Source: Bacillota bacterium
GTDB taxonomy: Bacteria; Bacillota; Dethiobacteria; DTU022
Direction: 5' to 3'
DNA length: 64,000 nucleotides
Assembly (NCBI GenBank): GCA_033549065.1
Contig: JAWSUE010000008.1
Span: 62,001 to 126,000, forward strand
This document shows positions 8,434 through 45,078 of the stretch, piece by piece; positions within the stretch are counted from its first letter, which is position 1, and each line of letters opens with the position of its first letter. The notes under the pieces are model-generated. The model did not search any database. It saw only the letters and a list, made by a program, of their open reading frames with translations, and was not told where the DNA came from. The position numbers and the translations under genes were made by a program.

Positions 8434-8808
8434 TTAAAAGGTTAATATAGCATCCGCTTCAAGGGCCAGATCGTTTAAAGTTGCAGCGCCGGCTATTTTA
8501 GCTTCTTCAATGAGATCTTCGGCTTTTATTTCACCGCCAAAGAGCTGCATGCTCTGCTGGCAGGCCATGATCTCGATACCCTGTGCTGCTGTCTGCTTTA
8601 TAACCTCCAACAAGTTGGGAAATTCCCCGATTTTAACTTTCTCGGCTTCCCCTTTTACCAGGTTTTTCATCCCCAACCCCAGAAAATATACTGTTGCATC
8701 AAGGCCCATCGCTTTTGCGGTTTGGGCAAGGATCAGGGGCGAATATAACCTTTCGGGAGTATTGGTTCCACTCGTCTGTACATACAATATCTTTTTCTTT
8801 TCAGCCAT
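8434..8808 (-). CDS. DsrE/DsrF-like sulfur-relay protein
   Basis: A 124-residue protein starting at ATG 8808, with AAGGAGG nine bases upstream; the ATG three codons earlier abuts the same site. The fold is that of the DsrE/F-like or peroxiredoxin-like family: ILYVQTSGTNTPERLYSPLI strand-helix, ATVYFLGLGM, then GIEIMACQQSMQLFG with a single conserved Cys that in DsrE/TusD relatives accepts persulfide sulfur. The start codon overlaps the stop region of the TusA-like gene, so the pair is coupled. With iscS, iscU and tusA upstream this is likely the end point or a shuttle of a persulfide relay. Not assignable to dissimilatory sulfite reduction, since no dsrAB is present. Confidence 0.83.
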   Translation of the reverse strand: MAEKKKILYVQTSGTNTPERLYSPLILAQTAKAMGLDATVYFLGLGMKNLVKGEAEKVKIGEFPNLLEVIKQTAAQGIEIMACQQSMQLFGGEIKAEDLIEEAKIAGAATLNDLALEADAILTF

Positions 8809-8809
8809 T

Positions 8810-9163
8810 TTAATCATCCTCCTTATCTTTTCTGATTAGAAAGTGATACTCATCACCTTTTTTGAACATCTGGATAAGAGTATGACCCGCCACTTTTGCC
8901 CAGCGGGGAATATCTTCTGCCGAAGCAGGATCATCTGCAACAAGTTCCATCAGCATATTTTTTTCTAACAAATCAATCTCTTCCTTTGCTCTCATCACCG
9001 GAACCGGGCAGTATAAGCCAACGCAGTCAACCCGCTGGATTTTCAGCTTGCCGTGTGTTCCGCACGTATACTTGTTATCAGTTGGATCAGGACATATCGG
9101 TTCATCACAAAAAGGACATTTACAAGATTGATCTGACTGCAACTGCATCTCTTCTTTATTCAT
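8810..9163 (-). CDS. TusA-family sulfurtransferase with Cys-rich N-terminal extension
   Basis: 117 residues. The C-terminal part is a TusA (SirA/YedF) domain with the hallmark CPVP motif (Cys52) after the DCVGLY strand. TusA domains carry sulfur as a persulfide on that first Cys. Unusually, about 45 extra residues precede it with Cys14, Cys16, Cys19, Cys24 and Cys34 (CKCPFC, then C and YTCGTHG), which looks like a small zinc ribbon or metal site. GGGAGG precedes the ATG at 9163. It lies 39 bases after iscU and overlaps dsrE, in the same operon as the IscS-like gene, so it probably takes sulfur from that enzyme or from inorganic sulfide. Confidence 0.87.
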   Translation of the reverse strand: MNKEEMQLQSDQSCKCPFCDEPICPDPTDNKYTCGTHGKLKIQRVDCVGLYCPVPVMRAKEEIDLLEKNMLMELVADDPASAEDIPRWAKVAGHTLIQMFKKGDEYHFLIRKDKEDD

Positions 9164-9202: not shown

Positions 9203-9598
9203 TCAGGAACCACTCTCGGCTTTAATCTTATTCTTTTCCATATAATCTTCAATCGCTTTATGCAGGGCATCGGCTCCCAGGTTTGAACAGTGCATCTTAT
9301 TGCCGGGAAGCCCTCCCAACTCTTCAGCGACCTGTTTGTTGGTAATTTTGAGTGCTTCTTCAAGGGTTTTACCCTTGGCCATTTCAGATACCATACTTGA
9401 TACTGAAATTGCCGCACCGCAACCAAATGTCAGATATTTAACATCTTCAATACGGCCATCTTTTACCTTAATAGTAAATTTCATCATATCTCCACAAACA
9501 GGATTTCCGACTTCTCCAACCCCGTCAGGGTCAGTTATTTCACCTATGTTTCTTGGATTTGTAAAATGATCCATTACTTTGTCACTGTACTGGGGCAT
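9203..9598 (-). CDS. iscU: IscU/NifU-type Fe-S cluster scaffold
   Basis: 131 residues with all three cluster-ligand cysteines of IscU: Cys35 in NPVCGD (with Asp37), Cys60 in FGCGAAI and Cys104 in MHCSNLG. The LPxxK/HC loop seen as LPGNKMHC is the chaperone-recognition region in IscU proteins (usually LPPVK); here PGN replaces PPV, consistent with systems lacking HscA/HscB, neither of which is nearby. The ATG at 9598 follows AAGGAGG and lies inside the last codons of iscS, a 17-base overlap. It builds [2Fe-2S] or [4Fe-4S] clusters for delivery to apoproteins. Confidence 0.94.
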   Translation of the reverse strand: MPQYSDKVMDHFTNPRNIGEITDPDGVGEVGNPVCGDMMKFTIKVKDGRIEDVKYLTFGCGAAISVSSMVSEMAKGKTLEEALKITNKQVAEELGGLPGNKMHCSNLGADALHKAIEDYMEKNKIKAESGS

Positions 9599-10778
9599 TC
9601 TTTTCAGCCTCCTTTAAATACTGATGATAGAGCGGTGACATATTCCTTAAGAGACCTGCGACCTGACCAAGTTGTTCGGTAATATATGGGATATCGTCAG
9701 CAATATTCTCTTTTCCCAGAGTAAAAAGTAGTGACCCCTGGGCTAGTTCCGGGGGAACACCAATGGCCGAAAGCACGTGAGATGATTTCAAGGCTTGTGA
9801 CGTGCATGACGAACCACTGGATACATGAATCCCGACCATATTCAGCCTCATTAATAGCGCTTCTCCTTCAACAAATTCAACAGAGAGGTTAAGGTTTCGG
9901 GGGACTCTCTGCTCCGGGTGGCCATTTAAGTGCAGGTGTGGAACGTTTGCCAACAGGCTTTCTTTTAGCTTGTCTCTCTGTGCAGCCACTACTTTTGAAT
10001 TTTGCTCAATATTTTCAGAAGCGATCCGCGCAGCTTCACCCATACCGGCAATTAGGGCAACATTCTCTGTTCCTGCCCGCAGCCCTCTCTCCTGAATTCC
10101 TCCCTCAATTAAAGGAGTTAACCTTACCCCGCGTCGAATAAACAATGCGCCGGTTCCCTTGGGACCGTAAAACTGATCTCCAGCCAGAGTCAGCAGGTCA
10201 ACTCCCATTTTTTCAACGGATAACGGAATCCATCCAGCCGCTGCCGTGGCATCTGTATGAAAAGTTATGCCTTTTTCACGGGCGATAGCGGCAATTTTTT
10301 CAACCGGCTGGATCGTACCAATTTCAGGGTTTGCAGTCTGAATCGAAATAAGAATGGTCTCATCCTTAATGGCTTCAGCAAGCTTATCCAGAGATAGGAA
10401 ACCGTGGCGATCCACCGGTATAAGAGTCACCTCGTATCCATTTTTCTGAAGTGTTTTGAGTTGATTAAGGATAGAAAAGTGCTCTATCGTCGAGGATATT
10501 ATATGATTCCCTTTATTCTTTGCCGATGCAGCCAGACCTTTGATGGCCAGGTTGTTAGATTCAGAAGCAGAAGAAGTAAAGATAATATTCTTTGGTTCTG
10601 CTTCCAATAAAATCCCAACTTTTTCACGGGCTTCTTCAAGTGCTTTTCTTGGTCTTTCTCCCAAGCTGTGACCACTGGAAGGATTACCGTAATACTCTTT
10701 AAAGTATGGGAGCATATACTCTAACACTGCTGGTTCCACCGGGGCTGCTGCAGCATAATCGAGATTAATAGTTTTCAT
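9582..10778 (-). CDS. IscS/NifS-like protein lacking the PLP lysine
   Basis: A 398-residue class V aminotransferase-fold protein; ATG at 10778 follows AAAGGAG. Overall it matches IscS/NifS: N-terminal YLDY-like INLDYAAAAP, EH at 99-100, Asn of the NPEIG segment, FHTDAT (Asp176), and the mobile catalytic-Cys loop SSGSSCTS (Cys325). At the site that reads S-x-H-K-x-x-GPKG in normal desulfurases, this protein has AGDQFYGPKG, so the Schiff-base Lys is Gln202 and the preceding His is Asp; the Gln after DAT is also Ala. A normal cysteine desulfurase reaction should therefore be impaired. Lysine-less IscS has been described in Archaeoglobus fulgidus with IscU. It may act as a scaffold or persulfide partner using sulfide; that is inference. 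Confidence 0.88.
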   Translation of the reverse strand: MKTINLDYAAAAPVEPAVLEYMLPYFKEYYGNPSSGHSLGERPRKALEEAREKVGILLEAEPKNIIFTSSASESNNLAIKGLAASAKNKGNHIISSTIEHFSILNQLKTLQKNGYEVTLIPVDRHGFLSLDKLAEAIKDETILISIQTANPEIGTIQPVEKIAAIAREKGITFHTDATAAAGWIPLSVEKMGVDLLTLAGDQFYGPKGTGALFIRRGVRLTPLIEGGIQERGLRAGTENVALIAGMGEAARIASENIEQNSKVVAAQRDKLKESLLANVPHLHLNGHPEQRVPRNLNLSVEFVEGEALLMRLNMVGIHVSSGSSCTSQALKSSHVLSAIGVPPELAQGSLLFTLGKENIADDIPYITEQLGQVAGLLRNMSPLYHQYLKEAEKNAPVQ

Positions 10779-10810
10779 CAGCAAACTCCTTTCTTCTTTT
10801 GCTGCAAGTA

Positions 10811-10878: not shown

Positions 10879-10975
10879 CCTTAGATTATGAAAAAAGGGT
10901 ATCGAAGGGAAGATGTTGAAATTATTTTTACCCTTTTGCATAATAATAATAAATAATTTAAGAGGAGAGATGCAA

Positions 10976-11473
10976 ATGAAAACAAAAGATAACTTAATGG
11001 CTGCCTTTGCCGGAGAATCACAAGCCAACCGTAAATACTTGTCTTTTGCCCGTAAGGCTGAAAAGGATGGATTTAAGAATGTGGGACGGATATTTCAGGC
11101 CATAGCTGAAGCTGAAACAGTCCATGCCTTAAAACATTTTGAGATTGCAGGCAAAGTAAACAGCACCCTTGAAAACCTTCAGGCTGCAGCTGAAGGAGAA
11201 CATTATGAGTTTACCAAAATGTACCCTGAATTCATCGAAACTGCTGATAAAGAAGGAGAGACTGACGCGCTAAAAACTTTTGAGTATGCAAATGCCGCGG
11301 AAAAAGTTCATGGCGGAATCTTCAACGATCTAAAAAATCAGGTTGCTAAAGGCGAAGATGTCGAAGATAAGGATGTATATCTCTGCCCTGTATGCGGCTG
11401 GGTTGGTCTCGATCCAGTTCCTGACAAGTGCCCGATCTGCAATACTGCAAAAAAAGCTTTCAAACAGTTTTAA
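10976..11473 (+). CDS. rbr: Rubrerythrin
   Basis: 165 residues; the ATG at 10976 lies eight bases after AGAGGAG. The N-terminal four-helix bundle has the ferritin-like di-iron ligands (FAGESQANRKY, AEAETVHALKHF, ETADKEGE, EKVHGGIF) and the C-terminal rubredoxin-like domain has CPVCGW and CPICNTA for an FeS4 site. Rubrerythrin reduces hydrogen peroxide in the cytosol of anaerobes using electrons from rubredoxin, whose gene follows 50 bases downstream. Divergent from the iscS operon through an overlapping promoter region. Confidence 0.97.
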   Translation: MKTKDNLMAAFAGESQANRKYLSFARKAEKDGFKNVGRIFQAIAEAETVHALKHFEIAGKVNSTLENLQAAAEGEHYEFTKMYPEFIETADKEGETDALKTFEYANAAEKVHGGIFNDLKNQVAKGEDVEDKDVYLCPVCGWVGLDPVPDKCPICNTAKKAFKQF

Positions 11474-11525
11474 TTAATTGGAAAAAGTTAGAAACATTCA
11501 GCTCTTACCTGGAGGGTTGCTGACA

Positions 11526-11696
11526 ATGCAAAGTTATATGTGCGAGCTCTGCGATTACACTTATGAACCTGATACAGGAGACCCCGAGCACGGAATAGCT
11601 CCCGGAACAGCTTTTGAAGATCTCCCCGATGACTGGACATGCCCGGTGTGCGGCGCTGATAAAGACGAATTTCAGGCTGTACCGGAAACAGCCTGA
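11526..11696 (+). CDS. Rubredoxin
   Basis: A 56-residue protein starting at ATG 11526 after GGAGG. The two CxxC pairs MCELCDYTY and [13 protein letters not shown] form the FeS4 centre, and the aromatic core residues (Tyr, Trp) are in place. It is the electron donor to rubrerythrin upstream and possibly to the flavo-diiron protein near 55 kb. A strong terminator follows at once. Confidence 0.96.
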
Positions 11697-11722: not shown

Positions 11723-11752
11723 AAAATGCCCTTTCTCAAGGGCATTTTTTTT
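11723..11752 (+). terminator. Rho-independent terminator after rubredoxin
   Basis: AAAATGCCCTT, a TCTC loop, AAGGGCATTTT and a run of eight T: a textbook intrinsic terminator for the rubrerythrin-rubredoxin transcript. Confidence 0.93.
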
Positions 11753-11759
11753 CTCAAAT

Positions 11760-12035
11760 TTATTCAAGTTCATTTGCTACCAGTTCACCAAAAATCCATA
11801 ACCCTGCCCATTTAATTTCGTAATTTTTGTTAACCATATCATTACGGACATAGAAAGTTATTCCTTCCACATCTCGTTTTTCATAATCATCCAATGTTTC
11901 AGGTGTGCCTGCTTTCACGGCAGGAGTTGAGACTCCACCGCCTCAGCCACCGAGGGTTGCAATGTAAAGAATATAAGGACTATCAGCTTTCTTCATTCTG
12001 CTTAGAGCTGCAGGTAGAATTTTTATATTACCCAT
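11760..12035 (-). CDS. HesB/IscA-like selenoprotein (in-frame UGA at codon 31)
   Basis: Read through one in-frame TGA (11943-11945), this is a 91-residue gene. It begins with ATG at 12035, seven bases after a perfect AAGGAGG, and ends with TAA. The product runs MGNIKILPAALSRM, YILYIATLGG-U-GGGVSTPAV, then KRDVEGITFYVRNDMV, which follows the IscA/HesB pattern (Cys-Gly-Gly loop followed by a VDGI.F.VD strand) with Sec at the usual Cys site. A hairpin CCTGC-7-GCAGG begins 18 bases after the UGA, its loop begins 23 bases after it, and the second loop base is G, which fits bacterial SECIS rules. HesB-like selenoproteins are known in anaerobic bacteria. A metal or Fe-S trafficking role beside iscSU is inferred. 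The alternative is a pseudogene with one nonsense mutation. Confidence 0.78.
11908..11924 (-). promoter_or_regulatory. Candidate SECIS hairpin of the HesB-like gene
   Basis: On the coding strand a 5-bp stem CCTGC/GCAGG encloses the loop CGTGAAA. The loop begins 23 bases after the UGA codon and has G in its second position. A second weaker hairpin (GGAG-TCTCAA-CTCC) lies between the UGA and this stem and would compete with it. Confidence 0.6.
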
Positions 12036-12105
12036 TTTAACGCCTCCTTATGTCGGTATATCGAATATTCATAAACCTATTGTAATATTACTTTTTTTTA
12101 TTATA

Positions 12106-13149
12106 TCACAGCAATCCACCATACTCCGCCATAAAAATACCAGACTCTTTTTTATTAATCTTTTCAATCCTGTACAGGGTTAACTCCTTCTCCTGGCCGG
12201 TCACTACTTTAAATCCATAGTAATTATTAACGTACTTCATTTTTCTACCCTCTTTTTCTGCTTTATCAATAAATTTATTGTGTTCAGCTAACCTTTTATC
12301 AATCAGGTTATTGTGCTGCCATCCCTCTTCGATCACGCGGTTAGCAACAAGGGGGAAATACTGTTCGTCGATCTCGTACCCAATACTGTTTCTGGCCGCC
12401 AGCATAGCCGCCATGAGAGTGCTTCCGGTTCCCATAAATGGATCAAGAACAGTATCGCCATATACTGAAAACATACAAATCAAACGGTAAGGAATTTGTA
12501 GGGGGAAAGCTGCACTGCGCCTGATTGTTCTTTCCCCCTTGCGTTCCTGCCTTGTTCCTTTTATATCCCAGAGATCAGAGTACCAAGCATTCCTCTCTTC
12601 CCAGAAAATAGCGCTTTTTCTCCTATTCAATTTCTCTTCTGCCGAGACAAACCTGCGTTTTTCCCCTTTCCGAAAAATAAGGATATGTTCGTGTTCCAGT
12701 GTTATATATGCACCAGATGGCAAAACTCCGGATCCCATAAACTTGGTAGGGGCATTGGTTTGTTTCCTCCAGATCACAGAGGGCAGGGTAGTAAATCCAA
12801 CAGAAGAGAAAAAGTTAATTATACGGGCGTGATTAGAGTAAATTTTAAATGTTCCATTCAAACTACGAACAGCATCGCCGATATTGATACAGACAATCCC
12901 ACCTTCAACGGTTACCCTGAATAATTCTTTCCAGATCGGTTCAAGCAGAAGATGCATATGATTAAAAGCTTCATCACCATTACCACGATCAATCATAGGC
13001 CTGATGGAGGAATCTTTTTCACAAAATAGATTATCCCACATTTCGATCATCGGGTAAGGTGGCGAAGTCACAACAAGATCAACGCTCTTGTCATCAAGTT
13101 CAGTCATCGTCTCGGCATCTTTATTAAAAATACGGTGTACTGTTTGCAC
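12106..13149 (-). CDS. Beta-class DNA methyltransferase (N4-cytosine/N6-adenine type), orphan
   Basis: 347 residues; GTG start at 13149 with GAGGTG upstream. Catalytic motif IV (TSPPYPMIEMW, residues about 29-39) comes before the SAM-binding motif I (DPFMGTGST, about 235-243), the order of beta-class amino-methyltransferases. TSPPY is the form common in N4-cytosine enzymes, though N6-adenine cannot be excluded. No restriction endonuclease or specificity gene is adjacent, so it is either an orphan regulator-type methylase or the remnant of a restriction-modification system. The HesB-like gene follows 70 bases downstream on the same strand. Confidence 0.88.
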   Translation of the reverse strand: MQTVHRIFNKDAETMTELDDKSVDLVVTSPPYPMIEMWDNLFCEKDSSIRPMIDRGNGDEAFNHMHLLLEPIWKELFRVTVEGGIVCINIGDAVRSLNGTFKIYSNHARIINFFSSVGFTTLPSVIWRKQTNAPTKFMGSGVLPSGAYITLEHEHILIFRKGEKRRFVSAEEKLNRRKSAIFWEERNAWYSDLWDIKGTRQERKGERTIRRSAAFPLQIPYRLICMFSVYGDTVLDPFMGTGSTLMAAMLAARNSIGYEIDEQYFPLVANRVIEEGWQHNNLIDKRLAEHNKFIDKAEKEGRKMKYVNNYYGFKVVTGQEKELTLYRIEKINKKESGIFMAEYGGLL

Positions 13150-42405: not shown

Positions 42406-45078
42406 TTAGGCTTTATCTATACGGATAGCGCAAACTTTTGTTTCGGGAGTTTTTGCTACCGGATCGAGTGCTGAACTGGTCAGCAGGTTAGTCGGGCATT
42501 CAGCAAAATGGAAACTGAGAGAAGCAACACCAGGTTGACTCCTTTTGGAGAGTTTAGCCCGGACTTTTATTGCTCCGCGTCGCGATTTAACTTCGACCAT
42601 ATCATCATCTTCAATACCCATTCTCAATGCATCATCGGGATTGATCAGGATATGCTCACCGCCGCTCAGTTCATCCAGCCCTTCTGAGTAGCGGGTCATG
42701 GTGCTGTGGAACTGGTAAAGGCTGCGCTCGGTGGTAAGAATTAGAGGGAAATCAGTGCAGCATAATTCGGCGGATTCCCTGTACGACAGTGGAACCAGTT
42801 TGCCTTTACCAGAAGGAGTGGCAAACTTTTCAGTGTGCAGTATAGGCGTTCCCGGATCATCGACCGTAGGACAGGGCCACTGAATTCCGAATTCATCGAT
42901 CCGATCGTAATTTAAACCGGCATAACTGGGTGTCAGAGAGGCCATTTCATTGAAGATTTCTTCAGCGCTGTGATAGGCAAAACCCTCATAACCCATTTCA
43001 TTTGCTATAGCGCTTACAATCCACCAATCGGGCTTCGCTTCACCGACGGGATCTATCACCCTGCGGACACGCTGTACCCGTCGTTCCGTATTGACAAAAC
43101 AGCCGTTTTTTTCTGCAAAAGATGCAGCAGGCAAAACAACATCTGCCACTTCTGCTGTTTCGTTGAGGAAGATGTCCTGGACAACAAAGAATTCCAGTTT
43201 CTCCATTGCTTCCTGGGCATGCGCCGCATTGGCTTCGGTTAGAACCGGATTTTCACCGACCAGGTAAATCGCTTTTATCTTACCTTCATAAGCTGCATCA
43301 AAAATTTCAGTATGCGTTAACCCGGGTTTACCGCTTAAAGAAACGCCCCAGGCATCTTCGAATTTCTTACGTGCTTCGTCGTTTTCAACTTTCTGATATC
43401 CGGTAAAAACATTTGGCAGTGAACCCATATCACAGGCTCCCTGGACATTATTCTGACCACGAAGAGGATTAACTCCTGCAGAAACCTGACCCAGGTTGCC
43501 GGTTATCAGTGCGAGGTTGCTGACCGCCAGAACGTTATCTGTCCCATGAGAATGCTGGGTAATACCCATGCAGTAGAGAATTGAAGCCGGACTGTTGTTA
43601 GCATACATCCGCGCCGCTTCAACAATCTTATCGAAGGGTAACCCGGTGGTTTCACTAACAAACTCAGGGGTAAATGCTTCAAGTGATTCCTTGAATTGCT
43701 CAAAATTTTCACATCGTTCGGCAATATAATCTTCATCATGCAGGCCTTCTTCGATTATAACCCTGGCCATGCCCATCAGAAGAGCCACATCAGTGCCGGG
43801 TTTAAGAGGCAGGTGCAGATCGGCGAAACGAACCAGGGCAACTTCCTGGGGATTGGCTACAATTAATTTTGCCCCATTGCGAACTGCCTTTTTAACCTGG
43901 TACCCGATGATCGGATGAGCATCGGTTGTACTGGTCCCAACGGCAAGGATACAGGATGAATCACCGATTTCACTGATTGAGTTGGTCATCGCTCCGCTGC
44001 CCAGTGAAGTGGCCAGACCGGCCACTGTCGGGGCGTGTCAGAGACGTGCGCAGTGATCAATATTATTGGTTTGCATCGCTGCTCGGGTAAATTTTTGCAT
44101 TACATAATTATCTTCGATGGTACATTTGGCCGATGCAATCATAGCAAACTGATCGCCTTTATAGCTACCCAGTTTTTCGGCAATTAGCGAGAGAGCTTCT
44201 TCCCAGCTTGCTTCGACCAGTTCACCATTTTTGCGAATTAGCGGTGTCTTCAAACGATCAGGATGATTGATAAAACCGAGACCAAATCGACCCTTCACAC
44301 AGAGACTGCCGTTACTGGCAGGGCTATCCGGAACCGCACGGGAACTGACTATTTTACCACCACGGGCACCTACAATGATCCCACATCCGCATCCGCAGAA
44401 TGGACAGATAGTTTCGACTTCATAAGTCGGTTCCGCTTCATCTCTTGGTACTAGAGCTCCAACCGGACAGCGGGCTACACACTCTCCACAGGTAACACAG
44501 GTGGAATCAATTATCGGCTTGTCACCCAGTACAGCGATTTTTGTCTTGATTCCGCGGTAGGCAAAATCGATACAGTGATCGCCCTGTATTTCATCACAGG
44601 TCCTGACACAGATACCGCAAAGCACGCACTTATTCATATCCCTTAAATAGAAAGGATTTGAATCATCAATAGGTTGATCCAGCACAGGCTTGCGCATTGC
44701 CTTTATACGCTCTTCATCAAGACCGATATAACGGGTCAGTTCCTGCAGCTGGCATTGACTGTTTTTAGCACAGCTCTGGCAATTATAATCGTGGTTCAGC
44801 ACGAGCAGCTCCAGGTTAACCCGACGGGTTTGATCGAGATCTTCACTTGCTGAAGTGACCACCATACCCTCTTCGACCGGAGTCATACAGGAAACCGTAG
44901 GCCGACGGCCCTCTATCTCAACCAGGCAAACCCGGCAAATTCCTACAGAGGTTAAATCTGGGTGATCACAGAGATGAGGGATATATATCCCATTCTCCAG
45001 CGCTGCCCTTAAAATCGATGTTCCCGGTTCTGCTTTTATTTCAACACCATCTATAGTCAGGGTAATCAACTCAGTCAT
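42406..45078 (-). CDS. fdhA: Formate dehydrogenase alpha subunit, selenocysteine-containing, NAD-linked type
   Basis: One gene of 890 residues interrupted by an in-frame TGA at 44038-44040, decoded as Sec347 in NIDHCARL-U-HAPTVAGLA, the active-site site of molybdenum/tungsten formate dehydrogenases. A perfect hairpin follows. The N-terminal 220 residues are NuoG-like: [2Fe-2S] cysteines (LCDHPDLTSVGICRVC), a His-Cys3 cluster (HDYNCQSCAKNSQC) and two [4Fe-4S] motifs (CVLCGICVRTC, CVTCGECVARC). Then come the CPFCGCGCG cluster and the bis-MGD cofactor domains to the end. It oxidises formate to CO2, or the reverse, and passes electrons to the NuoEF-like subunits. The start overlaps the nuoF-like stop (ATGA). 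Confidence 0.97.
44008..44026 (-). promoter_or_regulatory. SECIS element of fdhA
   Basis: On the coding strand AGTGGCC-GGTCT-GGCCACT forms a perfect 7-bp stem with a five-base loop starting with GG. The loop lies 18 bases after the UGA, within the spacing used by bacterial SelB. The loop GGTCT resembles that of the E. coli fdhF element. Confidence 0.9.

Follow-up and report, generated by a model that had tools for sequence, protein, structure and literature searches.

Two selenoprotein families are of direct relevance to the gene described here. A 2026 review (PMC13188914, Table 1) lists NF041239, predicted in Moorella thermoacetica, with the motif CxxU and one selenocysteine (Sec). Apart from it, the review lists the 'HesB-like' family TIGR01911, with the motif UxGP. 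NF041239 is thus a known but uncharacterised selenoprotein family, and the gene reported below is a new member of it. A third described system bears on the genes nearby. In the IscS protein of Archaeoglobus fulgidus the lysine that would hold PLP is replaced by Asp; the protein has no desulfurase activity and contributes a Cys that ligates the IscU cluster (PMC7585200).

Results and Discussion

A gene with an in-frame UGA

The gene occupies positions 11760 to 12035 on the minus strand of the 64-kb stretch of DNA analysed here (the window). It lies between the stop codon of a rubredoxin gene (11696) and that of a DNA methylase gene (12106), an interval in which the only ORF of at least 60 codons is the tail of one that overlaps the rubredoxin gene. 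The frame opens with ATG, encodes 91 residues and ends at TAA (11762-11760), and its sole internal TGA is codon 31 (11945-11943). A Shine-Dalgarno sequence, AGGAGG (12043-12048), is separated from the ATG by 7 nt. With Sec written as U, the translation is MGNIKILPAALSRMKKADSPYILYIATLGGUGGGVSTPAVKAGTPETLDDYEKRDVEGITFYVRNDMVNKNYEIKWAGLWIFGELVANELE. The protein contains no Cys and no His, and a single selenol is its sole soft ligand. On the plus strand, the same interval has stops throughout.

A hairpin seen by eye 3' of the gene, AAAATGCCCTT-GAGA-AAGGGCATTTT (11723-11748, minus strand), is a probable terminator shared with the opposed rubredoxin gene, and a scan for such signals gave no flag there. 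A promoter scan found none, and an Rfam scan of the 64-kb window returned no match. An earlier note on this DNA had described a frame of 92 codons, stop included, with a Shine-Dalgarno sequence and one internal TGA, in a gap without ORFs longer than 60 codons. Apart from the ORF tail just mentioned, this description holds, on the minus strand, and every detail of the note's observation that we tested proved accurate. Such a gene is invisible to plain ORF calling, which leaves a gap in its place.

Evidence for decoding as selenocysteine

The genome has adjacent selA, selB and selD genes on contig C14 and encodes a tRNA-Sec with the anticodon TCA (UCA in the RNA); its selD (L150, G000:C14:30023-30955) itself carries an in-frame TGA. 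Homologues of the protein were found in 29 of 60 genomes searched, its own included, and nearly all matches cross exactly one TGA, at the same place. These whole-genome searches replaced a single-sequence scan of genome contigs, which had returned only two relatives. Among 35 aligned homologues the Sec/Cys column does not vary, nor do A10, V40, G43 and P45. For 13 sequence pairs, dN/dS after the UGA is 0.06-0.26 in 12, with one distant pair at 0.55, and before the UGA it is 0.03-0.25 where computable; these values indicate purifying selection on the homologues both before and after the UGA.

Across the phylum, 78 of 398 genomes (a count made by hand) have a TGA-bearing NF041239 match, and a selA match is present in 75 of these 78 versus 197 of the 320 others (p = 7e-11). 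Three genomes (G223, G231 and G297) have the TGA-bearing match and no selA match; G223 and G297 are drafts that are 90-92% complete, and the incompleteness of these two, or decayed genes, are possible explanations. Elsewhere in the window, an in-frame TGA (44040-44038) interrupts fdhA (42406-45078, minus strand), in the context NNIDHCARL-U-HAPTVAGL.

The earlier note had argued for a selenoprotein from coding quality that persists past the UGA and from Sec use by fdhA, and had looked to the Sec machinery of the genome and to homologues extending across the UGA for support. The dN/dS values and the TGA in fdhA agree with the first two points; the machinery is present in full, and the homologues have Cys or Sec in the column of residue 31.

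A conserved SECIS hairpin

The bacterial SECIS hairpin (11908-11924, minus strand) consists of a 5-bp stem (CCUGC/GCAGG) and a 7-nt loop (CGUGAAA), and overlaps the codons of the motif PAVxAG. As had been noticed beforehand, the loop starts 23 nt past the UGA and has G in its second position. A common register, consisting of the UGA, 18 nt, a 5-bp stem, a 7-nt loop starting with CGUG and the closing strand, is found in 66 of 68 single-Sec homologues tested. Successive stem positions are paired in 66, 65, 66, 64 and 62 of the 66 homologues with the CGUG loop. In 40 distinct sequences, 97.5% of the stem cells are paired and 12 cells are changed on both sides (shuffled mean 2.1). The stem covariation score is 0.242 versus 0.128 for shuffled alignments and is reached by none of 500 shuffles; the shuffles ignore the kinship of the sequences, and we place more weight on a slide control and a codon test. 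Shifting the stem partners abolishes pairing, and the Val codon of the loop is GTG in 66 of 66 cases versus 112 of 476 at other Val codons of the same genes. In some members PAV..AG is replaced by PTV..VG, where a G-C pair becomes A-U: both amino acids are exchanged at once while pairing is preserved. Loop and stem are absent in 22 of 23 homologues without Sec.

The exception, L110 (G435:C13:31701-31967), has Cys at the Sec position, yet retains the CGTG loop and all five stem pairs. This hairpin may be the relic of a SECIS that outlasted a change from Sec to Cys; the match also contains a TAA.

Folding energy distinguishes the window hairpin poorly. The 39-nt segment has -7.5 kcal/mol (z -0.58), where the bSECIS model has a threshold of MFE <= -7.5 kcal/mol, and the hairpin alone has about -6 kcal/mol. 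A free fold of the whole 54 nt favours another structure. Among the 66 homologues the hairpin is part of the free-energy minimum in 60 when 27 nt are folded and in 28 when all 51 nt from the UGA are folded, and comparison with synonymous-codon nulls gave no consistent signal. The covariation and codon tests supersede the tests against these nulls. It is conservation, not energy, that lifts the hairpin above chance. The earlier proposal of a SECIS element was right in its conclusion, through the conservation in 66 of 68 homologues and the covariation; as an argument from one sequence it is weak by the energy tests.

Because the same bases form the covarying hairpin, the PAVxAG motif of the family is, as the alignments indicate, at least partly an RNA signal. 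Its dual role warns against taking such motifs for active-site residues.

Predicted fold

Profile-profile comparison with HesB-type selenoproteins gave 97.3%, with Sec31 aligned to the HesB Sec/Cys. The score was about 60, whereas 100 column shuffles reached 21 at most and the reversed profile scored 17. A direct search of PF01521 (Pfam) with the window protein sequence gave no match, weak matches to it were obtained for 13 of 35 homologues, and a sequence search of the PDB with the family profile found nothing significant. The AlphaFold2 model of the window protein has a pLDDT of 87 and a pTM of 0.72. In a structure search with this model, the top ten PDB matches were all SufA, IscA, HesB-type, DsrR or YneR proteins with a probability of 1.00, and no other listed entry exceeded 0.20. 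The best TM-score was 0.69, which makes this a match of fold and not a close one. The model and profiles together make it very probable that the protein has an IscA/SufA/HesB-type fold with Sec at the first ligand Cys of IscA, the place to which the earlier note had assigned the UGA and which profile alignment and structure matches agree on.

NF041239, a known family without a function, thereby gains a probable IscA/HesB fold, which suggests concrete assays. In a limited literature search we found neither this fold assignment nor the dual protein and RNA role of PAVxAG, and a search of the literature on SelB and SECIS elements yielded nothing of use.

Family assignment and alternative readings of the UGA

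The window protein scores 45.3 bits against the NF041239 'CC/Se motif family (seleno)protein' model (cut-off 40) over residues 4-87 of 91, and all 35 aligned homologues match this model. Codon 31 falls at the motif position, which is Cys or Sec in 35 of 35 sequences. The Cys of CxxU is missing from the window protein, which has L-G-G-U, and also from most of the aligned members that match NF041239; CxxU is therefore not defining for the family, and it describes the representative in PMC13188914 and lies outside the model cut-off.

Two other accounts of the gene were weighed and rejected. If the TGA were a true stop and the frame a pseudogene or a product of chance, it would be natural that no product has been seen so far and that standard gene calling leaves a gap at the locus, but the same TGA recurs in many genera, purifying selection continues past it, and a covarying SECIS accompanies a complete Sec machinery; we give this account next to no credence. 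The same evidence, with UGAs aligned across genera, strongly supports the earlier selenoprotein reading, and we are highly confident that this is a functional NF041239 selenoprotein gene whose UGA is decoded as Sec, a judgement from sequence that concerns identity and decoding, not function. Membership of the established TIGR01911 family would account for the alignment of Sec with the HesB Sec/Cys and for the common fold, but a search with the TIGR01911 model (cut-off 66.35 bits) that admitted E values up to 1 did not return the window protein, the UxGP motif is absent (U-G-G-G instead) and there is no C-terminal Cys pair. In addition, another gene of that type, L133, is present in the same genome, though it too is below the cut-off. 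Such membership is very improbable. The name 'HesB-like' in the earlier note thus suits the fold and the alignment of Sec with the first IscA/HesB Cys; as a family name it fails, since NF041239 is matched above its cut-off, TIGR01911 is not matched and the C-terminal Cys ligands are lacking.

L133 (G000:C12:52151-52375), the other IscA/HesB-type gene of this genome that has an in-frame TGA, is nearer to the HesB group: it contains UGGP and ends with the Cys-rich motif CGDCSC towards the C terminus. Several family paralogues in relatives (L114 in two copies, L115, L116, L048 and L049) start with a hydrophobic segment that terminates in LSGC or LTGC. These are apparent lipoproteins, and would be selenoproteins of the same fold on the surface or periplasm side.

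A subfamily with tandem UGA codons

The most surprising by-product of the analysis is a group of ten loci (L080 and L082-L090) with two consecutive in-frame TGA codons (Sec-Sec), typically in the context RGUUNAFYAPSG. Some members exceed the NF041239 cut-off, and the AlphaFold2 model for the subfamily resembles IscA only weakly. The loci have their own covarying 7-bp hairpin after the second TGA, in which 100% of the cells pair and both strands of the stem show changes. In four genomes (L158, L159, L161 and L162) the gene lies between those for an aldehyde:ferredoxin oxidoreductase and a [FeFe]-hydrogenase-like protein. The UU motif is absent from the selenoprotein table of PMC13188914, and a literature search for tandem UGA in bacteria yielded nothing useful.

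Genomic neighbourhood

The selenoprotein gene is preceded, 70 bp off, by a DNA methylase gene (N6_N4_Mtase; 12106-13149, minus strand), a neighbour that varies among relatives. It is followed by two convergent plus-strand genes that form a separate unit, for rubredoxin (11478-11696) and rubrerythrin (10913-11473). Beyond this pair, on the strand of the selenoprotein gene, lie an iscS-type gene (9582-10784), iscU (9203-9598, identified by sequence), tusA (8810-9163) and dsrE (8434-8817). We rejected a shared operon of the selenoprotein gene and iscS, since the opposed genes lie between them. In three genomes (L166-L168; G004, G020 and G023) rubrerythrin and iscS-iscU-tusA come after the selenoprotein gene; in a fourth (L169; G007) rubrerythrin and iscS do. 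These four genomes represent three further genera of the same GTDB family as the window, and their upstream neighbour varies (methylase, DUF2817). The earlier statement that the gene sits beside iscS-iscU-tusA-dsrE is therefore true of position, and recurs in four other genomes of the GTDB family; the two are separate transcription units.

The window IscS lacks the PLP lysine, as had also been stated: it reads GDQFYGPKG, with Gln at the Lys position, and keeps the GSSC Cys loop. All five IscS proteins (window and L166-L169) share this trait, with DQF[YG]GPKG versus HKxxGPKG (DQF for HKI), whereas the other desulfurase-like genes of the window's genome retain the lysine (AHKI, AHKF). In these five genomes the selenoprotein and rubrerythrin genes are always near the Lys-less iscS.

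Possible function

Translation would start at 12035. SelB with Sec-tRNA (anticodon UCA) would bind the CGUG-loop hairpin behind the UGA, for which the machinery and the hairpin provide sequence evidence; Sec would be inserted at residue 31, and the ribosome would continue to the TAA. The product would be a protein of predicted IscA/SufA/HesB-type fold with Sec at the first ligand position and no other Cys or His. Its selenol, perhaps with that of a second protomer, could act as a reducible group that carries iron, an Fe-S unit or persulfide sulfur for the neighbouring Lys-less IscS-IscU-TusA-DsrE set. We offer this, tentatively, as the likeliest role, and would sooner doubt it than assume it. 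If true, it would place selenium chemistry in the service of Fe-S assembly.

The selenium-based Fe-S or metal carrier that the earlier note envisaged is plausible in that it is consistent with the recurring synteny. However, a single protomer, with its one selenol, is unable to hold an Fe-S cluster by itself, the iscS-side neighbours belong to a separate transcription unit, and the lipoprotein paralogues in relatives suggest that some members have roles other than cytosolic Fe-S assembly. The same protein could instead be a redox selenol, or one that scavenges peroxides or electrophiles, tied to rubredoxin and rubrerythrin. These are its nearest recurring neighbours, a redox role is presumed for many selenoproteins, and CxxU is listed for the family (PMC13188914), although a Cys three positions ahead of Sec is missing from the window protein and from most of its close relatives, the window protein lacks any resolving Cys, and the fold is IscA-like and not thioredoxin-like. 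Such a role agrees with the rubrerythrin context about as well as the carrier role does, and is likewise possible but somewhat doubtful. There is, moreover, about an even chance that the gene order reflects common ancestry of a chromosome segment and does not tie the gene functionally to rubrerythrin or the isc genes: the syntenic genomes found are all within one GTDB family, the selenoprotein gene is a separate, opposed unit and other relatives have other neighbours, but in four genera the downstream order persists despite a changing upstream neighbour (methylase, DUF2817). Returning to the carrier, its most specific form is unlikely. In that form, selenium would assist Fe-S assembly in anaerobic Firmicutes: the IscA-fold protein, free of Cys and with a single Sec, would be dedicated to carrying Fe, Fe-S or persulfide on its selenolate, in the service of a cluster whose IscS, no longer capable of desulfurase chemistry, donates only a Cys ligand.

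Comparison with known systems

The window protein resembles the NF041239 family in its score above the cut-off, its length, its Sec position and its fold; at the position of the CxxU Cys it has Leu, and most of its GTDB family has Arg. With the TIGR01911 selenoproteins it shares the remote homology noted above and a Sec that takes the place of the first Cys in the IscA/HesB fold, and it differs from them in the missing model match, UxGP motif and C-terminal Cys pair. The predicted fold is also that of IscA, SufA and ErpA (PF01521). IscA has three ligand Cys residues, one central and two in a CxC near the C terminus, whereas the window protein keeps the central position alone, as Sec. DsrR reportedly lacks the Cys ligands of IscA, so that ligand-poor relatives of IscA exist, and neither DsrR nor YneR is known to contain Sec. 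Both of these IscA-type proteins (PDB 2k4z, 9a4q) were among the best structure matches of the model. Finally, the window IscS is like that of A. fulgidus in missing the PLP lysine, but it has Gln where the latter has Asp, and its cluster adds tusA and dsrE and lies near a selenoprotein gene.
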